64,000 nt of DNA from Knoellia sinensis KCTC 19936. Its GTDB lineage: Bacteria; Actinomycetota; Actinomycetes; Actinomycetales; Dermatophilaceae. Each line of letters opens with the position of its first letter. The first letter of the stretch is position 1. Position numbers and translations under genes: made by a program. Where the stretch lies: the NCBI RefSeq assembly GCF_000768705.1, contig NZ_AVPJ01000001.1, positions 248,001-312,000 of the forward strand. The letters run 5' to 3'. The notes beneath the pieces are model-generated. The model was not told the origin of the DNA. It saw only the letters and a list, made by a program, of their open reading frames with translations, and ran no database searches. This document shows positions 16,401 to 23,433 of the stretch, piece after piece.

Positions 16401-16729
16401 AGCTCGGCGGGCAGGCCGTGGGTGTCCCAGCCGAATCGGCGCTCGACCCGGCGTCCGCGCATCGTCTGGTAGCGCGGCACGAGGTCCTTGACGTAGCCGG
16501 TGAGCAGGTGGCCGTAGTGCGGCAGGCCATTGGCGAAGGGCGGCCCGTCATAGAAGACGAACTCGTTGTCACCGTTCTCGCCGGCTTCACGGTTCTCGAT
16601 CGACGCCCGGAAGGTGTCGTCGGCCTCCCAGAAGGCGAGGATTCGCTCCTCGATCTCCGGGAAGCGCGGGCTCGAGGGCACACCGAAAGCTGCGCCGGGC
16701 TGGCTGGTGGAGACCTTGGGGTAGGTCAT
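13406..16729 (-). CDS. ileS: Isoleucine--tRNA ligase
   Basis: Class I aminoacyl-tRNA synthetase charging tRNA-Ile. The 1107-aa protein has the HIGH-type motif in GLPHYGHLL (near residue 69), the connective-peptide editing domain with [12 protein letters not shown], and KMSKS in [10 protein letters not shown] (about residue 646). A long C-terminal anticodon-binding and extension region follows. Length fits the long eukaryote-like IleRS type found in many actinobacteria. ATG 16729 has GGAG about 9 bp upstream. It is preceded by a T-box leader, so expression should rise when tRNA-Ile is uncharged. Confidence 0.96.
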
Positions 16730-16744: not shown

Positions 16745-16985
16745 CGGTCGTCGCTACGTCATGTCGACGAGGACGAAAGGCCTTCCGGCGTATGCCGGCC
16801 GGTCACCTCCGCGGTGCCACCTCGCTTGCCGCAGCCGCGCGCTCAACCCGAGCCCACGGCATACGACCGCTCTTGTCAAAGATCGTGACGTGACCCGGAC
16901 GTCCGGTTCTAGTGAGCGGGCGGACCCGCCGTTCTTCCGGAGGCTCGCCGCTGATGACGGCTCAGGCGCCTGTGAGCCCAGTCTA
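16745..16985 (-). promoter_or_regulatory. T-box riboswitch (tRNA-Ile sensing) and promoter of ileS
   Basis: Read on the minus strand, the leader has a -10-like TAGACT (16980-16985). An ultrashort Stem I region carries an isoleucine specifier ATC (plus-strand 16953-16955) in the loop CCG-TCATCAG-CGG. The block TAGAACCGGACG follows, and then the conserved T-box AGGTGGCACCGCG (plus-strand 16810-16822). These match the ultrashort-Stem-I ileS T-boxes known from actinobacteria, which mostly control translation by exposing the Shine-Dalgarno site. The loop contents and folding were judged by eye. Confidence 0.85.
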
Positions 16986-16992
16986 ACGGCAG

Positions 16993-17021
16993 TTGGGCGG
17001 GGGTCTGGAGCGCGTTAGACT
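16993..17021 (+). promoter_or_regulatory. Candidate promoter of the cobalamin-riboswitch operon
   Basis: TTGGGC at 16993-16998 and TAGACT at 17016-17021, 17 bp apart. The facing ileS promoter uses the same TAGACT about 30 bp away on the other strand. GTCTAACG and CGTTAGAC form an inverted repeat around the shared promoter core. Confidence 0.45.
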
Positions 17022-17027
17022 CTGCCC

Positions 17028-17212
17028 GTCGCCGACCCCTCGGTGACACCCAACCGCGTCCGCGGGGGAAAGCCGGTCGGAGTCCGGCGCTGACCCGCAA
17101 CCGTAGGCCACCCGAGAGGCTGGCGAGCCGGACCACCACGCTGACGCGAATGGCTCCAGATCACCCGTCGAGGTCGCGGGACGGAGCCCGGACAGCCTCA
17201 GGGCCGCGTTCG
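17028..17212 (+). promoter_or_regulatory. Cobalamin riboswitch
   Basis: The leader holds the conserved elements in order: GGTGACACC, GGGGGAAAGCCGG, AGTCCGGCGCTGACCCGC with AACCG (the B12 box, about 17072-17103), and the downstream GAGCCGGACCACC. These match the adenosylcobalamin riboswitch family, which represses expression when cobalamin is plentiful. It lies about 40 bp before the first gene of the ECF operon and gives the main evidence that the operon handles a corrinoid. The exact switching helix is not resolved by eye; occlusion of the GAGGAAGG ribosome site is likely. Confidence 0.9.
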
Positions 17213-17250
17213 GGCGAACGTCACGAACCGCCGAGGAAGGCTCGTCCCCC

Positions 17251-18840
17251 ATGCTCCGCTCCCCCCTCCGAGTGCGCGTCGTCGCACCGCTCGCGCTCGC
17301 CGCGTTGACCCTGGGTATGCCGTCCGCCGCCCTCGCCGAGACCGTGCCGGCTCCCAGCCCGACCGCGTCCGCTTCGGCCCCCGCCTCGGCTTCACCTTCG
17401 CCGACCGAGACCGCGGCTCCCAACACGCCGAGCACGACCGCGACAGCGACGCCCACGCCCGAGGTGAGCACGCCGGCCACGAAGCCTGCCGCACCCACCA
17501 CGACCCCAGCCGCTCCTGCCGCCCCGGCGCCCGAGGGCAAGGCGGTGCCGTTCGGTGCCGACCGGAGCAGCGCCCGCATCGCCGGCACTCCGTCTGACCA
17601 GGCCGGATACGCGGGCGGCTTCATGGTCCGCACGCTCGCGGAGCAGGGCAACCACTACACCTACCCGGGCAGCGACTTCTTCGACGGTGGGAACACCATC
17701 GACGCGATCCTCGGCCTCGACGGGGCCAAGGTGGGTCAGGACGGGGCCGACGCGGCCTTCGCCCACCTCGAGGACAACCTGGGCTCCTACATCGGCACGG
17801 ACTTCAGCTCCCTCTATGCCGGGCCGACCGCCAAGGCCCTGCTCGCCGTCGTCGCCCACGGCGGGGACCCCACCGCCTTCGGCGGCGTGGACCTCGTCGA
17901 CGAGCTCGTGAACAACTCGCTCGGTGCGGTCGAGCCGGGCCGCTTCTCCGACCTGCCTGTCGACTGCGGCTTCGACACGTGTGACTACTCCAACACCATC
18001 GGTCAGTCCCTCGCGATCATCGCCGTGGGTCGCGCGACGGGCGAGGTCCCGGGCGAGGCGGTCGACCTCCTGCTCGACCAGCAGTGCGCTGACGGCGGAT
18101 TCCGGGGCACGATCAACCCGGCTGGCGACGCCTGCGCCTCCGACCTCGACGCCACCGCATTCGCCGTGCAGGCGCTCGTCGGTCTCGGTGCCGACGAGGC
18201 AGTCGACGGGCTCGACTACCTCGCGTCGAAGCAGCAGTCCTCGGGCGGCTTCATCAACGGTGACGGTGTCGTGAACACGAACTCGACCGCGGTGGCCGCC
18301 CAGGCCTTCGCAGCCGCGGGCTGGACCGAGGAGCTCGGTGCCGCACAGGGCTTCCTCGCCGAGCTGCAGCTCGACTGCACCTTCACTGCCGGGCTCCGCG
18401 GCGGCATCGCCTTCTCGGCAGCCGACCGGGCCACCCTGCTGAAGACCCCGGGCGACCAGGAGGCCATCGACAAGATGCTCCGCGCGACGCCGCAGTCGAC
18501 CCTCGCCCTCGCCGGCGGATCTCTCCTCGACGTCACCGTGGAGGGCACCAAGGCGTCGGCCCCATCCGTCCCGTGCTCGACCAGCCCCTCCCCTACGGGA
18601 ACCTCGGCGCCGACCCCAACCGAGACGACCCCGGGCACCGGCACCGGCTCGGGAACGGCCACGCCGTCCGCGACCGCACCGACCGGCTCGAACCCGTCGA
18701 CGACCGCGCCGGCCACCGCTGGACCGGGCCTCGCCTACACCGGTGGCTCGCCGGTCGCCCCGCTCACCCTCGCAGTGCTCCTTCTCCTCGCCGGCGCTGC
18801 GACGATCCTCGCCTCGCGCCGTCGGGGTGCTCGTCAGTGA
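17251..18840 (+). CDS. Secreted, cell-wall-anchored alpha/alpha-barrel (prenyltransferase-repeat) protein, intrinsic-factor-like
   Basis: 529 aa. Signal peptide about residues 1-30, then a Ser/Thr/Pro/Ala linker to about 95. A globular region (about 100-435) of helical repeats follows, with QQCADGGF and KQQSSGGF, the signature of prenyltransferase/squalene-cyclase alpha6/alpha6 barrels. Cysteines are paired in CGFDTC and elsewhere, fitting an oxidised extracellular fold. A second Thr/Pro linker leads to LAYTGG, a membrane helix and RRRGARQ: an LAXTG-type sorting signal used by class E sortases. No catalytic Asp-rich cyclase motif is evident, so binding rather than catalysis is likely. ATG 17251 follows GAGGAAGG. 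Its place directly behind a cobalamin riboswitch suggests corrinoid binding, like the alpha domain of intrinsic factor (inference). Confidence 0.85.
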   Translation: MLRSPLRVRVVAPLALAALTLGMPSAALAETVPAPSPTASASAPASASPSPTETAAPNTPSTTATATPTPEVSTPATKPAAPTTTPAAPAAPAPEGKAVPFGADRSSARIAGTPSDQAGYAGGFMVRTLAEQGNHYTYPGSDFFDGGNTIDAILGLDGAKVGQDGADAAFAHLEDNLGSYIGTDFSSLYAGPTAKALLAVVAHGGDPTAFGGVDLVDELVNNSLGAVEPGRFSDLPVDCGFDTCDYSNTIGQSLAIIAVGRATGEVPGEAVDLLLDQQCADGGFRGTINPAGDACASDLDATAFAVQALVGLGADEAVDGLDYLASKQQSSGGFINGDGVVNTNSTAVAAQAFAAAGWTEELGAAQGFLAELQLDCTFTAGLRGGIAFSAADRATLLKTPGDQEAIDKMLRATPQSTLALAGGSLLDVTVEGTKASAPSVPCSTSPSPTGTSAPTPTETTPGTGTGSGTATPSATAPTGSNPSTTAPATAGPGLAYTGGSPVAPLTLAVLLLLAGAATILASRRRGARQ

Positions 18841-19727
18841 CACTGCGCCACCACCTTCGGAGGCTCCTCGTCATCGCGGGGAGCACGACCGTCGCGGCCT
18901 TCGGCCTCATCGGGGCGGCCGCCCCGGCGCAGGCTGCGGCCTGCTCGGGGACGAGCGGCGTCACCGTGGTCATCCAGTCCTCATCCGGCACGTCCACGCG
19001 CTGTGCCAGCGGCGACCCGTCGACGGCGATGGCTGCCTTGCAGTCCGTCGCCAACGTCACTCAGGTGCAGACGCAACCCGGGTTCATCTGCCAGATCAAC
19101 GGCTACCCCAACACCTCCTGCGTGCGGACCCCTCCAGCCGACGCGTACTGGGCCTTCTTCCACGCTCCTGCGGGAGGCTCGTGGACGTACTCCCAGAGCG
19201 GTGCCGGGAGCCACAACCCGAGGCCCGGTGGCTCGGTCGGCTTCCGTTTCGGTTCAGGGGCCGCGCCATCGGTGAAGCCGGCAGCTCCTGCACCAGCCGC
19301 GCCGAAGCCCAAGCCACCGACCGCCGCGCCCAAGCCGCCGACGGCAGCGCCCAAGCCCGCCAGCACGCCCCGGCGCACGACCGCAGCACCCAAGAGCACC
19401 TCGGGTGGCACATCCGCAGGCACGTCTGCCACGACGTCGAAGCCCGCGTCCAGCGCCTCCCGTGCGGGCAAGGCCGCCGCCAGTTCGCGTCCGTCCTCGA
19501 GCGCCCCCGCGTCCGCGACACCCATCGCGAGCCCGACCGCCTCAACAAGCGCGACCACGTCATCGACGCCCACGAACTCGGCCACGACCAACGTCCAGGC
19601 CGCTCCGCAGCAGGACGCGGACACGGGCACGACCGGCACGAGCCGCCTCGTCGGCGGCGGAGCCCTCCTGGCCGGCCTCGCCGCGGCCATCGCAGCCGTG
19701 GCGGTCCGTCGGCGCAGCCTCTCCTGA
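18837..19727 (+). CDS. SCO2322-like secreted protein with DUF4430-type domain, membrane-anchored
   Basis: 296 aa from GTG 18837, which overlaps the previous stop as GTGA; this and the signal peptide (cut near APAQAAA) fixed the start. Residues about 30-140 form a compact domain with GVTVVIQ, CQINGYPNTSC and YWAFFHAPAGGSWTYSQSG. This fits the DUF4430/transcobalamin C-terminal beta domain and the SCO2322-type proteins found beside ECF genes in actinobacteria. A long Pro/Ala/Ser/Thr linker follows, then a C-terminal membrane helix with a basic end (VRRRSLS). Function unproven; partnership with the preceding alpha-barrel protein is inferred. Confidence 0.82.
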   Translation: MTLRHHLRRLLVIAGSTTVAAFGLIGAAAPAQAAACSGTSGVTVVIQSSSGTSTRCASGDPSTAMAALQSVANVTQVQTQPGFICQINGYPNTSCVRTPPADAYWAFFHAPAGGSWTYSQSGAGSHNPRPGGSVGFRFGSGAAPSVKPAAPAPAAPKPKPPTAAPKPPTAAPKPASTPRRTTAAPKSTSGGTSAGTSATTSKPASSASRAGKAAASSRPSSSAPASATPIASPTASTSATTSSTPTNSATTNVQAAPQQDADTGTTGTSRLVGGGALLAGLAAAIAAVAVRRRSLS

Positions 19728-19748
19728 GTCCCACGAGATGCTGACCTC

Positions 19749-20936
19749 ATGAGTCCGGCCCTGCCCCGCGCGGTTCATCCCGTCGCGTGGTGGGGCTGGG
19801 CCATCGGGCTCGCGGTCGCTGTGAGCGCCGTGACCAACCCCCTGCTCCTCCTCACCGCGCTCGGAGTCGCCGCACTCGTGGTGACGTCACGGCGGGGAAG
19901 CTCACCGTGGGCCAAATCCTTCCGCCTCTACCTGTGGCTCGGCGCGTTCATCGTGGCCGTGCGCGCCCTGCTCCACGTCCTCGTGGGCCTCAAGTTCGGT
20001 GAGACCGTCCTCCTGCCCCTGCCGGAAGTGACCCTTCCGTCTTGGGCCGCGGGCATCAACATCCTCGGTGACCTTCGGCTCGAAGGCCTTCTCGGGGCCG
20101 TGACCGACGGCCTCCGGCTCGCTGTGATGATCGCGTGCATCGGGGCCGCGAACGCTCTCGCCAACCCCAAGCGCCTGCTGCGAAGCCTGCCCGGAGCCCT
20201 CAGCGAGATCGGCTCCGCCGTGGTCGTGACGATCACCGTCGCGCCGCAGCTCGCCGACAGTGTGCAGCGAGTCATGCGGGCGCGGGCCTTGCGCGGCGAC
20301 ACGTCCCGCGGCATCCGAGCCCTTCCCCGCATCGCGCTCCCCGTCCTCGAGGACACGCTGGACCGCTCGCTTCTCCTCGCGTCGGCGATGGATTCCAGGG
20401 GCTACGGCCGCCGGCGTGAAGTGACCGGCAGCCAGCGGCTGCTCACCGCGATCTGCACCTTCGGCGGACTGGTCGCCAGCGCCGTCGGCATCTACGGGAT
20501 TCTCGATGCGACCACTCCGGGATGGTTGGGCATACCTGCGCTGGCACTCGGAATTGCCCTGTCCCTCACCGGAATCTGGCTCGGCGGTCATGCCAACGCC
20601 CGCTCGACCTATCGGCCTGACCCGTGGCGCTGGCCGGAATGGTTGACCGTGGGGTCAGGGCTCGCCGCTGCTGTTGGCGTGCATCTCGTCGCCCGCACCG
20701 ATGCCGCCTCCTTGGGTATGCCGTTGTCCCCTCTCGCCGTGCCCGCCCTTCCCCTGCTTGCTGTGGCCGGGTTGCTCGTGGCCGCGCTCCCAGCGTTCCT
20801 CACCCCACCGCCCCCCTCAGCCTCAGCGACACGCAGTTCACACCTTCGACTTCGTGCCCCACTGGGACAGGCGCCTCGGGCCGAAGGCCCTCCCTCGCTG
20901 TCCCAGTGGGGCACGAAGTCGAAGAGGGAGACGTGA
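19749..20936 (+). CDS. ECF transporter T component (CbiQ/EcfT family)
   Basis: Transmembrane coupling subunit that links the ATPases to the substrate-binding S component. 395 aa with about six to eight membrane segments. The coupling-helix motifs of the family are visible: RVMRARALRGD and ASAMDSRGYGR, which contact the ATPases. The C-terminus is odd. The last ~30 codons (RSSHLRLRAPLGQ to KSKRET) are the translation of a 27-bp-stem dispersed DNA hairpin, so the protein tail was extended by repeat insertion. The gene starts 21 bp after the preceding stop. Its stop overlaps the ATPase start as TGATG. Confidence 0.9.
   Translation: MSPALPRAVHPVAWWGWAIGLAVAVSAVTNPLLLLTALGVAALVVTSRRGSSPWAKSFRLYLWLGAFIVAVRALLHVLVGLKFGETVLLPLPEVTLPSWAAGINILGDLRLEGLLGAVTDGLRLAVMIACIGAANALANPKRLLRSLPGALSEIGSAVVVTITVAPQLADSVQRVMRARALRGDTSRGIRALPRIALPVLEDTLDRSLLLASAMDSRGYGRRREVTGSQRLLTAICTFGGLVASAVGIYGILDATTPGWLGIPALALGIALSLTGIWLGGHANARSTYRPDPWRWPEWLTVGSGLAAAVGVHLVARTDAASLGMPLSPLAVPALPLLAVAGLLVAALPAFLTPPPPSASATRSSHLRLRAPLGQAPRAEGPPSLSQWGTKSKRET
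20844..20924. repeat. 27-bp perfect inverted repeat inside the 3' end of the EcfT gene
   Basis: Arms at 20844-20870 and 20898-20924 pair perfectly over 27 bp, beginning CTTCGACTTCGTGCCCC. The loop contains GGGCC-GAA-GGCCC. The core CGACTTCGTGCCCCA matches the hairpin after ileS (13321-13398). Here it is within coding sequence and just before the ATPase ribosome site. Confidence 0.88.
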
Positions 20937-22558
20937 TGATCGAGTTCGACCGCGTGAGCGTGACGTTCGACGGCGCCATGGAGCCAGCCCTGCGTGACGT
21001 CTCCCTGAGCATCGACGAGGGCGAGCTGGCTCTCGTCATCGGGCGCACCGGGTCCGGCAAGTCGACACTTCTCGGAGCCATGACCGGGCAGGTCCCCCAC
21101 TTCACCGGCGGCACCCTCGCCGGCCACGTCCGGATCGACAGGCGCGACACCCGGGACCACCGGCCGCGTGATCTCGCCGACCTCATCGGCGTCGTCGGGC
21201 AGGACCCTCTCGCGGGCTTCGTCACCGACACCGTCGAGGAGGAACTCGTCTACGGCATGGAGCAACTCGGCCTCGACTCGTCGACGATGCGCAAGCGCGT
21301 CGAGGAGACACTCGACGTCCTCGGCATCGCCGACCTGCGCGGCGCAGCCCTGCGCGAACTCTCCGGCGGTCAACAGCAGCGCGTCGCGATCGGTTCCGTC
21401 CTCACGGCCCACCCCAGGGTCATCGTGCTCGACGAGCCGACGTCGGCCCTCGACCCGACCGGCGCCGAAGACGTGCTCGCGACGATCACCCGTCTCGTAC
21501 ACGACCTGGCCGTGACCGTCGTCGTCGCCGAGCACCGCATCGAGCGCGTCCTCCAGTACGCCGACTCCATCATTCATGTGGGAGCCAACGGTGTTGTGTC
21601 ACAGGGCGATCCGGCGACGATGATGGTGACCGCCGAGGTCGCACCGCCCGTGGTCGAGCTCGGGCGGTGGGCCGGATGGTCGCCGCTCCCCCTGTCCGTC
21701 CGGGACGCCCGGCGTCGCGCCAAGGAGTGGCGTTCCCTCGACGCCCAACCGCTCCGTCTCCCCGGGGACCCCACTGGTGTCGTCGCACTCGAGGCGCAGG
21801 ACGTCATCGTCGCCCACGACTCCGTGGTGGCTGTCGCAGGGGTGGATCTGACACTGCGGGCCGGTGAGATCACGGCGCTCATGGGCCGCAACGGCGCCGG
21901 CAAGTCCTCGCTCCTGTGGGCCATTCAGGGCAGCGGATCCATGAGATCCGGCTCCGTGCGGGTCCCGGCTTCCGGTGCGGCACCGGACATCGACGTGCGC
22001 AGCCTCGACGCCGCACAGCGCCGCCGCCACGTCGGACTCGTCCCCCAGTCGGCCGCAGACCTCCTCTATCTCGACACGGTGGGTGCCGAGTGCGCCCAAG
22101 CCGATCGCGAGAGCGATCGCCAATCCGGCACCTGCCGCAGCCTTCTCGACAACTTGGCACCCGGCATACCGGACGATCGTCACCCACGGGACCTCTCCGA
22201 AGGGCAACGGCTGGCTGTCGTCCTGGCCGTTCAGTTGACCGCGGACCCACCCGTACTCCTCCTCGATGAGCCGACCCGGGGTCTCGACTACGCCGGCAAG
22301 GCGGCCCTCCGTCAGGCGCTGCGTGACCTCAGCGCGCGCGGACGCAGCGTCGTCGTCTCGACGCACGACGTCGAGTTCGTCGCGGGAACCGCGGACCGGG
22401 TCATCGTGATGGCTGCCGGCGAGGTCGTCGCCGATGGCACCGCGGCCGACGTCGTCGTCTCCAGCCCCGCGTTCGCCCCCCAGGTCTCCAAGATCACCGC
22501 ACCCCAGCCGTGGCTCACCGTCGACGACGTCCGGTATGCCGTCGGAGAACCCTCGTGA
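20936..22558 (+). CDS. ECF transporter ATP-binding protein, two fused ABC domains
   Basis: 540-aa energising subunit, equivalent to EcfA1 and EcfA2 in one chain. Domain 1: Walker A GRTGSGKST (about residue 35), signature LSGGQQQRVAIG, Walker B VIVLDEPTS. Domain 2: Walker A GRNGAGKSS, a degenerate signature LSEGQRLAVVLA and Walker B VLLLDEPTR. Both nucleotide sites keep their key Lys and Glu. ATG 20936 overlaps the EcfT stop (TGATG) and has GAGGGAG upstream. The longer upstream ORF was rejected because it is EcfT read in another frame. It powers uptake with the EcfT and S genes on either side. Confidence 0.93.
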   Translation: MIEFDRVSVTFDGAMEPALRDVSLSIDEGELALVIGRTGSGKSTLLGAMTGQVPHFTGGTLAGHVRIDRRDTRDHRPRDLADLIGVVGQDPLAGFVTDTVEEELVYGMEQLGLDSSTMRKRVEETLDVLGIADLRGAALRELSGGQQQRVAIGSVLTAHPRVIVLDEPTSALDPTGAEDVLATITRLVHDLAVTVVVAEHRIERVLQYADSIIHVGANGVVSQGDPATMMVTAEVAPPVVELGRWAGWSPLPLSVRDARRRAKEWRSLDAQPLRLPGDPTGVVALEAQDVIVAHDSVVAVAGVDLTLRAGEITALMGRNGAGKSSLLWAIQGSGSMRSGSVRVPASGAAPDIDVRSLDAAQRRRHVGLVPQSAADLLYLDTVGAECAQADRESDRQSGTCRSLLDNLAPGIPDDRHPRDLSEGQRLAVVLAVQLTADPPVLLLDEPTRGLDYAGKAALRQALRDLSARGRSVVVSTHDVEFVAGTADRVIVMAAGEVVADGTAADVVVSSPAFAPQVSKITAPQPWLTVDDVRYAVGEPS

Positions 22559-23433
22559 CCGCGCTCGCCACTCCGCCGCGACCGGCGACGCGGAGCGGGT
22601 CCCCACGTGCCATCCGGCTGAAGCCGCGATCCATCGCCGCCATCGCCGCCGTGAGTCTTGCCGGCGTCGTGGCCTTTGGCTGGCCACTCCTCGTCGACCC
22701 CGGCACGACGTTCTCCCACTCGACCGACGCGCCACTCCTCTTCTCGCTGCTCATGCCACTGCTGCTCGCCGTCGTGCTGGCCGAGATCTCGGAGGGTGGC
22801 CTCGACGTGAAGGCGATCGCCATGCTCGGAGTGCTCTCGGCCATCGGCGCCGCGCTGAGGCCCGTGGGAGCGGGCACTGCCGGACTCGAGACGGTCTTCT
22901 TCCTGCTCATTCTGGGGGGCCGAGTCTTCGGTGCAGGCTTCGGTTTCGTGCTCGGCGCCACCACGCTGTTCGCATCCGCTCTCATCACCGGTGGCGTCGG
23001 CCCATGGCTCCCGTTCCAGATGCTCGGTGCCGCGTGGGTGGGATTGGGAGCAGGGCTGCTGCCGCCCCTGCGCGGCAAGGCCGAGATCGCTCTGCTCGCG
23101 GCCTATGGCGCCGTGGCCGGGTTGCTCTACGGTGTGTGCCTCAACCTCATGTTCTGGCCCTTCACCACCGGACTCGACGGCGAACTGTCCTTCGTGGCTG
23201 GCGCGCCACTCACCGACAACCTGCAGCGCTTCCTCGTCTACTCTCTCGCGACCTCGCTCGGCTGGGACATCGGGCGCGCGATCACCAACATCGCCCTCGT
23301 GTCGCTCACCGGAACCGTGGTGCTGCGCACCCTGCGACGGGCCGCACGCAAGGCGGCGTTCGAGGCTCCGGTCGAGTTCACTCCGGCCGCCCACGGCACG
23401 ACGCGACCTGCCGGTTCGGACATGCGCGGCTGA
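22555..23433 (+). CDS. ECF transporter S component, predicted corrinoid-specific
   Basis: Substrate-specific membrane subunit of 292 aa with about six hydrophobic segments, including AIAMLGVLSAIGAALRPVGAG, LGGRVFGAGFGFVLGATTLF and GVGPWLPFQMLGAAWVGLGAG. The last resembles the P-F-Q-M-L-G motif of S components next to SCO2322-like genes. GTG 22555 overlaps the ATPase stop as GTGA. S components bind vitamins with high affinity. Because the operon starts with a cobalamin riboswitch, cobalamin or a corrinoid precursor such as cobinamide or a lower-ligand base is the likely substrate; the sequence alone does not say which. Confidence 0.85.
   Translation: MTALATPPRPATRSGSPRAIRLKPRSIAAIAAVSLAGVVAFGWPLLVDPGTTFSHSTDAPLLFSLLMPLLLAVVLAEISEGGLDVKAIAMLGVLSAIGAALRPVGAGTAGLETVFFLLILGGRVFGAGFGFVLGATTLFASALITGGVGPWLPFQMLGAAWVGLGAGLLPPLRGKAEIALLAAYGAVAGLLYGVCLNLMFWPFTTGLDGELSFVAGAPLTDNLQRFLVYSLATSLGWDIGRAITNIALVSLTGTVVLRTLRRAARKAAFEAPVEFTPAAHGTTRPAGSDMRG

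Follow-up and report, generated by a model that had tools for sequence, protein, structure and literature searches.

A putative two-chain, transcobalamin-like corrinoid receptor encoded with an energy-coupling factor importer in Knoellia sinensis and other actinobacteria

The DNA considered here, called the window throughout, is a stretch of 64,000 nucleotides (nt) from the 3.99-Mb genome of the actinobacterium Knoellia sinensis KCTC 19936 (contig NZ_AVPJ01000001.1, positions 248,001 to 312,000). It carries five plus-strand genes that overlap or almost touch one another and that encode, in this order, two proteins with signal peptides, named A and B in the following, and the EcfT component, the fused ATPase and the S component of an energy-coupling factor (ECF) importer (Table 1). 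A reading of the sequence alone had taken these genes as one coupled set behind a cobalamin riboswitch and the importer as complete. Both statements were confirmed: the genes for A and B overlap by 4 nt, and T, ATPase and S are found in one operon, with S scoring under the Pfam cut-off and with a leader RNA that stays under the Rfam gathering score in the window and is backed by its counterparts in relatives.

Table 1. Features of the operon, in positions of the window. P/T/S/A, proline, threonine, serine and alanine; pLDDT, predicted local distance difference test; pTM, predicted template modelling score; R1, leader model described in the text.
Feature	Position	Strand	Description
Cobalamin-riboswitch-like leader	17014-17167	+	R1 model match; Rfam core match 17067-17137
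Gene A	17251-18840	+	529 amino acids; signal peptide, P/T/S/A-rich linker, predicted alpha/alpha toroid, second linker, LAYTGG-type tail; SCO2321-like
Toroid domain of A	17563-18552	+	AlphaFold2 pLDDT 95.7, pTM 0.94
Tail of A: LAYTGG motif, hydrophobic stretch, basic end	18730-18837	+	Sequence; NCBIfam Microco_LAVTG
Gene B	18837-19727	+	296 amino acids, GTG start; signal peptide, small predicted beta-grasp (transcobalamin beta-like) domain, P/T/S/A-rich linker, membrane tail; SCO2322-like
Globular domain of B	18930-19283	+	AlphaFold2 pLDDT 92.3, pTM 0.87
EcfT (CbiQ family)	19749-20936	+	PF02361, E 1.8e-9
Fused ECF ATPase, two ABC domains	20936-22558	+	PF00005, 2 stretches, E 1.9e-50
ECF S component	22555-23433	+	PF12822, E 1.7e-5, 25.4 bits, below cut-off 30.7

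The leader upstream of A was recovered by a relaxed Rfam scan of positions 16800-17400 (601 bases), in which the cobalamin riboswitch family RF00174 matched with an E-value of 0.0042, and its identification as a cobalamin riboswitch is secured by homologous leaders in relatives. In 25 of 28 scanned sources a cobalamin-class Rfam match with an E-value of 0.1 or better lies upstream of A, belonging to RF01482 in locus L068 and to RF00174 in the others, and 11 of the 28 reach the gathering score. The Rfam scan gave no leader match upstream of A in L017, L024 and L082, the last of which begins just before A, and the only other match listed for the relatives was a single T-box (E 0.09). A model, R1, was built from 20 such leaders, and nine of the 19 predicted stem pairs of the leader display two-sided changes. 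R1 scores the window leader, itself one of the 20 training sequences, with 131.6 bits and matches in 50 of 58 related sources; 14 of these sources are training genomes, and 36 of the 44 others match, many of them being close kin. The scan of the 58 sources gave no R1 match in L076, L078, L082, L091, L093, L096, L097 and L100, and 53 of the 56 matches obtained are followed by an A or B domain within 900 nt. L067 and L075 possess two A genes each, every one with its own leader, and L092 has a second, lone B gene with a leader copy of its own (16521-16683, minus strand). According to the available part of PMC4991794, Borovok 2006 listed nine B12 riboswitches of Streptomyces coelicolor, and the leader of the corresponding S. 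coelicolor operon may already have been published among them.

Protein A consists of a globular domain between two linkers, P/T/S/A residues making up 70% of its first 105 residues and 65% of its last 96, the region of the second linker. At the C-terminus, LAYTGG is followed by a hydrophobic stretch and RRRGARQ, and the tail matches the NCBIfam model Microco_LAVTG with 19.1 bits (cut-off 27). A is thereby a candidate LAXTG-type sortase substrate, with the motif, the hydrophobic stretch, the basic tail and, in the host genome, four matches to the sortase family PF04203. An AlphaFold2 model calculated from 53 sequences contains 14 helices of at least four residues, 12 of which can be read as six helix pairs, and predicts an alpha/alpha toroid, a fold that by sequence is generic. 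A Foldseek search with this model returned transcobalamin from rank 19 onwards (4zrp, E 5.7e-5, probability 1.00), and six of the 50 best rows are transcobalamin. The window protein matches the NCBIfam family SCO2321_fam (NF053823, E 7.2e-25) and the Pfam family Prenyltrans (E 0.021), both below cut-off. PF01122, the Pfam family of eukaryotic cobalamin-binding proteins, does not match the A protein of the window and matches two of the 53 members, both below cut-off; the fused toroid of L091 gave an E-value of 0.0012 (18.3 bits, cut-off 25; residues 67-245 of 314, profile positions 87-250) and the L101 toroid one of 0.13. Of 19 conserved charged or amide residues of A, 10 are located close to where an inner helix begins, compared with 22% of positions (P 0.002, in a test framed after the model had been seen).

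Protein B comprises a globular domain of about 118 residues and a 148-residue tail with 70% P/T/S/A, and ends in a hydrophobic stretch and RRRSLS. Its AlphaFold2 model, calculated from 56 sequences, shows the element order two strands, helix, short hairpin and two further strands, with the helix at 33-40 and strands at 43-45 and 53-56, the feature of the SLBB clade taken from the available text of PMC1796856. The same element order is given for the beta domain of transcobalamin in the accessible parts of PMC1796856 and PMC11107200. When the model was compared with the PDB by Foldseek, ranks 1-16 were all transcobalamin, intrinsic factor or haptocorrin, headed by the apo beta domain of human transcobalamin (5no0, E 0.012, probability 1.00) and followed by 3u7z of Ruminococcus gnavus. 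The prediction thereby supports a transcobalamin beta fold for B. Since transcobalamin kin top the list for B and trail the cyclases for A, B provides the specific evidence and A is compatible with it. Sequence comparisons are less telling for B: the window protein misses the Pfam cut-off for DUF4430 (PF14478; E 0.17, 12.8 bits, cut-off 23.8), three of 56 relatives match this family at an E-value up to 10 (best 0.017), and the B profile matches a profile of 19 curated DUF4430 domains with an E-value of 1.1e-4 and a probability of 55.8%. The DUF4430-type assignment accordingly rests on the predicted fold together with this modest profile-profile match. B further matches the NCBIfam family SCO2322_fam (NF040672) at 7.7e-6, below cut-off; Pfam matches to Marek_A and SOG2 were taken as chance. 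Against PDB sequences, the B profile recovered antibody chains only, and the A and B sequences of the window, searched singly, gave nothing useful. 

Predicting each chain singly and comparing the models with known structures, as the sequence-only reading had proposed, thus placed transcobalamin kin first for B and among the matches for A. The alpha/alpha barrel of prenyltransferase repeats foreseen for A corresponds to a predicted toroid with a weak Prenyltrans match, and the sortase-type tail of A and the membrane tail of B are both seen in the sequence, the former under the cut-off of the LAVTG model. A secreted, DUF4430-like B stands as far as its predicted fold is concerned and fails at the Pfam cut-off.

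For the fused ATPase of the importer, ECF_ATPase families score best in NCBIfam, below cut-off. PF12822 is the sole Pfam match of the S component at an E-value up to 1, and CbiM is not called. Two copies of a dispersed repeat of the GACTTYGTGCCCCANTGGGACA type lie in opposite orientation within the 3' end of EcfT, at 20848-20869 (+) and 20899-20920 (-). This repeat has 56 matches in the genome at no more than two mismatches, 27 of them forward and 29 reverse, against none in the control; its copies are often paired about 50 bp apart, and G000:C61:46712-47057 is an array of seven direct copies with a spacing of 54 bp.

The distribution of the system was surveyed in three sets, namely the genomes of 98 relatives, a species-level contig collection and 296 genomes spread over the class. 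Among the relatives, A occurs in 23 genomes, the host included. The contig collection yielded 55 loci, labelled as coming from actinobacteria or actinobacterial metagenome-assembled genomes (MAGs); A adjoins B together with T, ATPase and S in 39 of them, adjoins B with an ECF set that is incomplete or absent in the locus in seven, and three loci end at a contig edge. In the class genomes, whose counts ignore relatedness, A was found in 145, with an E-value of 1e-10 or better in 111 (strong A), and B in 156 (E 0.001 or better). B is present in 106 of the 111 strong-A genomes compared with one of the 34 weak-A genomes. Recurring genes that flank the operon were set aside, as they looked like shared chromosomal context.

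Natural fusions bind the parts of the system to one another, and gene order varies. L046 encodes a natural A-B fusion and L091, an Acidimicrobiales MAG, a natural B-A fusion, while a 1228-codon frame in L163 (6733-10419, minus strand) joins B and two A toroids with additional sequence and is followed by a second B and ECF genes. A B domain and EcfT share one reading frame in Cellulomonas telluris (L093, 10856-12532). In L152 and L153 the leader is followed by B, T, ATPase, S and finally A. L156 has leader and B and no ECF gene in its 14 kb, and L158-L161 carry, next to ECF genes, a B whose start resembles that of a lipoprotein, A not being found. Multiplied forms occur as well: six Pseudonocardiales loci (L067, L073, L075, L077, L078 and L083) contain two B genes and, in addition to a normal A, an A-type protein that is long and has at least two toroid matches, and L047 (genome G016) has one A and three B domains ahead of the ECF genes.

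Both proteins also appear in circularly permuted form. In nine loci of Streptomyces type (L143-L147 and L149-L151 from the class search and L102 from a Nanopelagicales MAG) the B profile is matched in swapped order, with positions of about 70-118 preceding those of about 8-72. The same holds for A in seven of these loci, where about 138-298 precedes about 8-123; only the later part of A was matched in L150 and L151. Moving the second part to the front raised the score of B by 6-22 bits in all nine loci and that of A by 45-71 bits in seven, with no gain in L150 and 2 bits in L151, so that permutation of A is not shown in these two; ten canonical domains (five A, five B) scored best unrotated. 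B is free of internal repeats, and the sequences show its swap plainly, whereas the swapped order of A could partly reflect a shift of register, because the toroid has internal repeats. Among the matches listed, at least 64 class genomes have an A that matches later part first or later part only, at least 49 have a canonical one and four have both; the figure of at least 64 does not equal proven permutations, since L150 and L151 belong to that kind. The matches of the NCBIfam models SCO2321 and SCO2322 to the window proteins are displaced in the same direction, which suggests that these Streptomyces families are probably the permuted form. R1 lies upstream of the operon in 10 of 11 loci fetched from the class search (7 of 8 of the permuted type, 3 of 3 canonical).

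The host has the B12-synthesis gene CbiC and is therefore not an evident auxotroph. Its genome contains three other cobalamin riboswitches above gathering score (G000:C17:8965-9151, C61:127861-127932 and C61:119427-119494; L124-L126), which are followed by genes that we take to be CbtA-like, CobN-like and chelatase/CobL-like. In view of CbiC and of these riboswitch-preceded synthesis- or transport-like genes, the operon would serve salvage and not sole supply. The operon is not put down to auxotrophy, since CbiC is present in 10 of the 23 relatives with A and in 30 of the 75 without. In the 13 A-bearing relatives without CbiC, 12 of which have a match to the B12 domain of MetH, import would therefore be needed. 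MetH as such was matched in 22 of 23 A-bearing relatives compared with 52 of 75 others (Fisher p 0.011, relatedness ignored), the match in G096 being partial (83 bits).

On the basis of the gene set, its conserved order, the predicted folds, the natural fusions and the homology of the leader, the operon probably encodes a two-chain, transcobalamin-like corrinoid receptor that feeds the ECF importer and serves corrinoid salvage under a cobalamin riboswitch. The ligand, the order of binding, the assembly of A with B, the docking on S or T and the repression by cobalamin are inferred; a corrinoid is taken as the substrate because the B fold coincides with the riboswitch and with an ECF importer whose S component is not called CbiM. 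B, tethered outside the membrane, would bind the corrinoid first, like the beta domain of transcobalamin, and A, hung on the cell wall or the membrane, would close over it like the alpha domain. The loaded pair would then hand the corrinoid to the S component, EcfT and the fused ATPase would drive its import, and sufficient intracellular cobalamin would switch the operon off via the leader RNA. In such a scheme B may be regarded as the core, A as the lid and S as the acceptor. Separately made domains of human transcobalamin join on cobalamin, the beta domain binding first (available parts of PMC5599065 and PMC11107200), and a clamp of two chains is therefore physically reasonable; B is also the chain retained in ECF operons that lack A, which fits its proposed role as first binder. 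About as likely as not is a more far-reaching version, a split intrinsic factor in which separately anchored B (beta) and A (alpha) would assemble around a surface corrinoid and dock on a dedicated S component. In this version, permutation of both chains would have moved the tethers in a large branch, with pair, riboswitch and importer kept, and the lid would have been lost in some genomes, B alone serving.

The survey of co-occurrence in actinobacteria that the sequence-only reading had proposed shows the pair conserved with a cobalamin riboswitch and a full ECF set. The idea of that reading that A and B are two halves of one binding protein is partly supported by the natural fusions and the joint conservation, but the pair is not symmetrical, as B stands beside ECF genes without A. 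A split intrinsic factor at the cell surface is likewise favoured by the predicted folds, the conserved pairing and the fusions, and is weakened by the late appearance of transcobalamin among the matches of A.

A number of observations weigh against a two-chain corrinoid receptor, and some of them point to other explanations. At gathering score, the Rfam scan detected no RF00174 riboswitch in the whole 64-kb window, the leader reaching 20.6 bits where 31.5 are required, and L158-L161 gave no R1 match for their B and ECF genes. A PDB sequence search of the S component against solved structures returned no match, and the relatives of S match a single NCBIfam family, that of folate-type S components, in 11 of 30 cases and with a best E-value of 2.2e-6. 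None of the Foldseek matches of B reaches an E-value of 0.001 or below, and the presence of A is not tied to the absence of CbiC. Six of the 55 loci contain A without an adjacent B, and L155 and L157 (both on 1.3-Mb contigs) as well as L162 combine leader, B, T, ATPase and S without A. These two kinds of loci would suit an arrangement in which B is the sole corrinoid receptor of the importer and A a wall-linked scaffold, a corrinoid store or another partner, and so would the fusion of B with EcfT and the 50 of 296 class genomes that have B without a strong A. Such a division of labour is nonetheless unlikely in the light of the nearly constant company of B in strong-A genomes and of the fusion of A and B in both orders.

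A further difficulty is that Foldseek ranks 1-18 of the A model are taken by squalene/terpene cyclases and unsaturated glucuronyl hydrolase. A could then be an enzyme, terpene-cyclase-like or glycan-acting, with B alone belonging to transport; in agreement with this, the A profile matches a squalene-cyclase-like terpene synthase with an E-value of 9.4e-14, and 38 and 34 of the 53 A members have weak matches to Prenyltrans and SQHop_cyclase_C, respectively. Class II cyclases use a DxDD motif. In an alignment with a drimenyl diphosphate synthase, the SDPDATA motif of A falls on the SDPISTA repeat, at a distance from residue 303, the position mutated in the entries of that enzyme. As A is also secreted and shares its operon with an importer, an enzyme is very improbable indeed. 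It is also conceivable that importer and surface proteins handle another substrate of the regulon, such as dimethylbenzimidazole, alpha-ribazole or cobalt, given that cobalamin riboswitches, including the other three of the host, control more than cobalamin uptake, that the host has CbiC and that EcfT is CbiQ-like. This appears improbable, too: B is predicted to fold like cobalamin-binding domains, S is not called CbiM, and L124 presumably represents a separate cobalt route in the host.

If the two-chain receptor is real, it would add a capture stage, for corrinoids, to ECF importers and would provide a testable role for two families that are widespread and have no known function (strong A in 111 and B in 156 of the 296 class genomes). 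It would connect the B12 carriers of animals with a bacterial system with the domains as separate chains, and the permuted branch would amount to a natural experiment on the tethering of the clamp. The operon would moreover serve as a genomic marker of corrinoid uptake in actinobacteria, where the sharing of B12 is an open question.

The sequence-only reading had regarded the function as undescribed. This needs correction as to the kind of system, because such systems were already predicted, as far as the available texts of PMC1796856 and PMC5301498 show. The former (Burroughs 2007) describes an SLBB clade of secreted and anchored proteins that, like those of the window, combine SLBB domains with toroids, in fusions of either order and with Gram-positive anchors and CbiO/CbiQ neighbours, and it predicts that they scavenge B12 or its precursors. 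The clade is named there for low-GC Gram-positives, planctomycetes and euryarchaea, whereas the pair of the window is actinobacterial; the available text contains no split actinobacterial pair, riboswitch link or permutation, all of which are seen here. ECF modules behind cobalamin or adenosylcobalamin riboswitches were read as putative cobalamin transporters in acI actinobacteria, which have no B12 synthesis, and the accessible part of that report (PMC5301498) mentions no surface proteins, in contrast to A and B of the window. The portion of PMC5997447 at hand ascribes substrate binding by ECF importers to the membrane S component; ECF-CbrT of Lactobacillus, an ECF importer like that of the window operon, transports cobalamin and cobinamide, its S component alone binding the substrate. 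The SCO2321 and SCO2322 families, matched by A and B under cut-off and at shifted coordinates, have names that give no function, and in the open-licence PMC literature the locus names SCO2321-2325 occur only in one paper, on transdermal peptides. DUF4430 is mentioned there in six papers, one of which deals with B12 binders of vertebrates. The same literature yielded no matching description of a split bacterial transcobalamin, nor of the split actinobacterial pair or its riboswitch link, nor, among the papers listed, of its permutation. What seems to be new, judged from this literature, is the split and partly permuted actinobacterial form; the general idea of B12 scavenging by toroid and SLBB domains is known and still unproven.

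The closest likeness is to animal transcobalamin, intrinsic factor and haptocorrin, which share with the predicted folds of the window pair the combination of a toroidal alpha domain and a beta-grasp beta domain. The sequences of the window pair stay below the Pfam cut-offs of these carriers, and the pair is bacterial and comes with its own importer. The animal proteins are one soluble chain, whereas the window encodes two separate anchored chains; the two domains are found in one chain, as in the transcobalamin family, in L046, L091 and L163.

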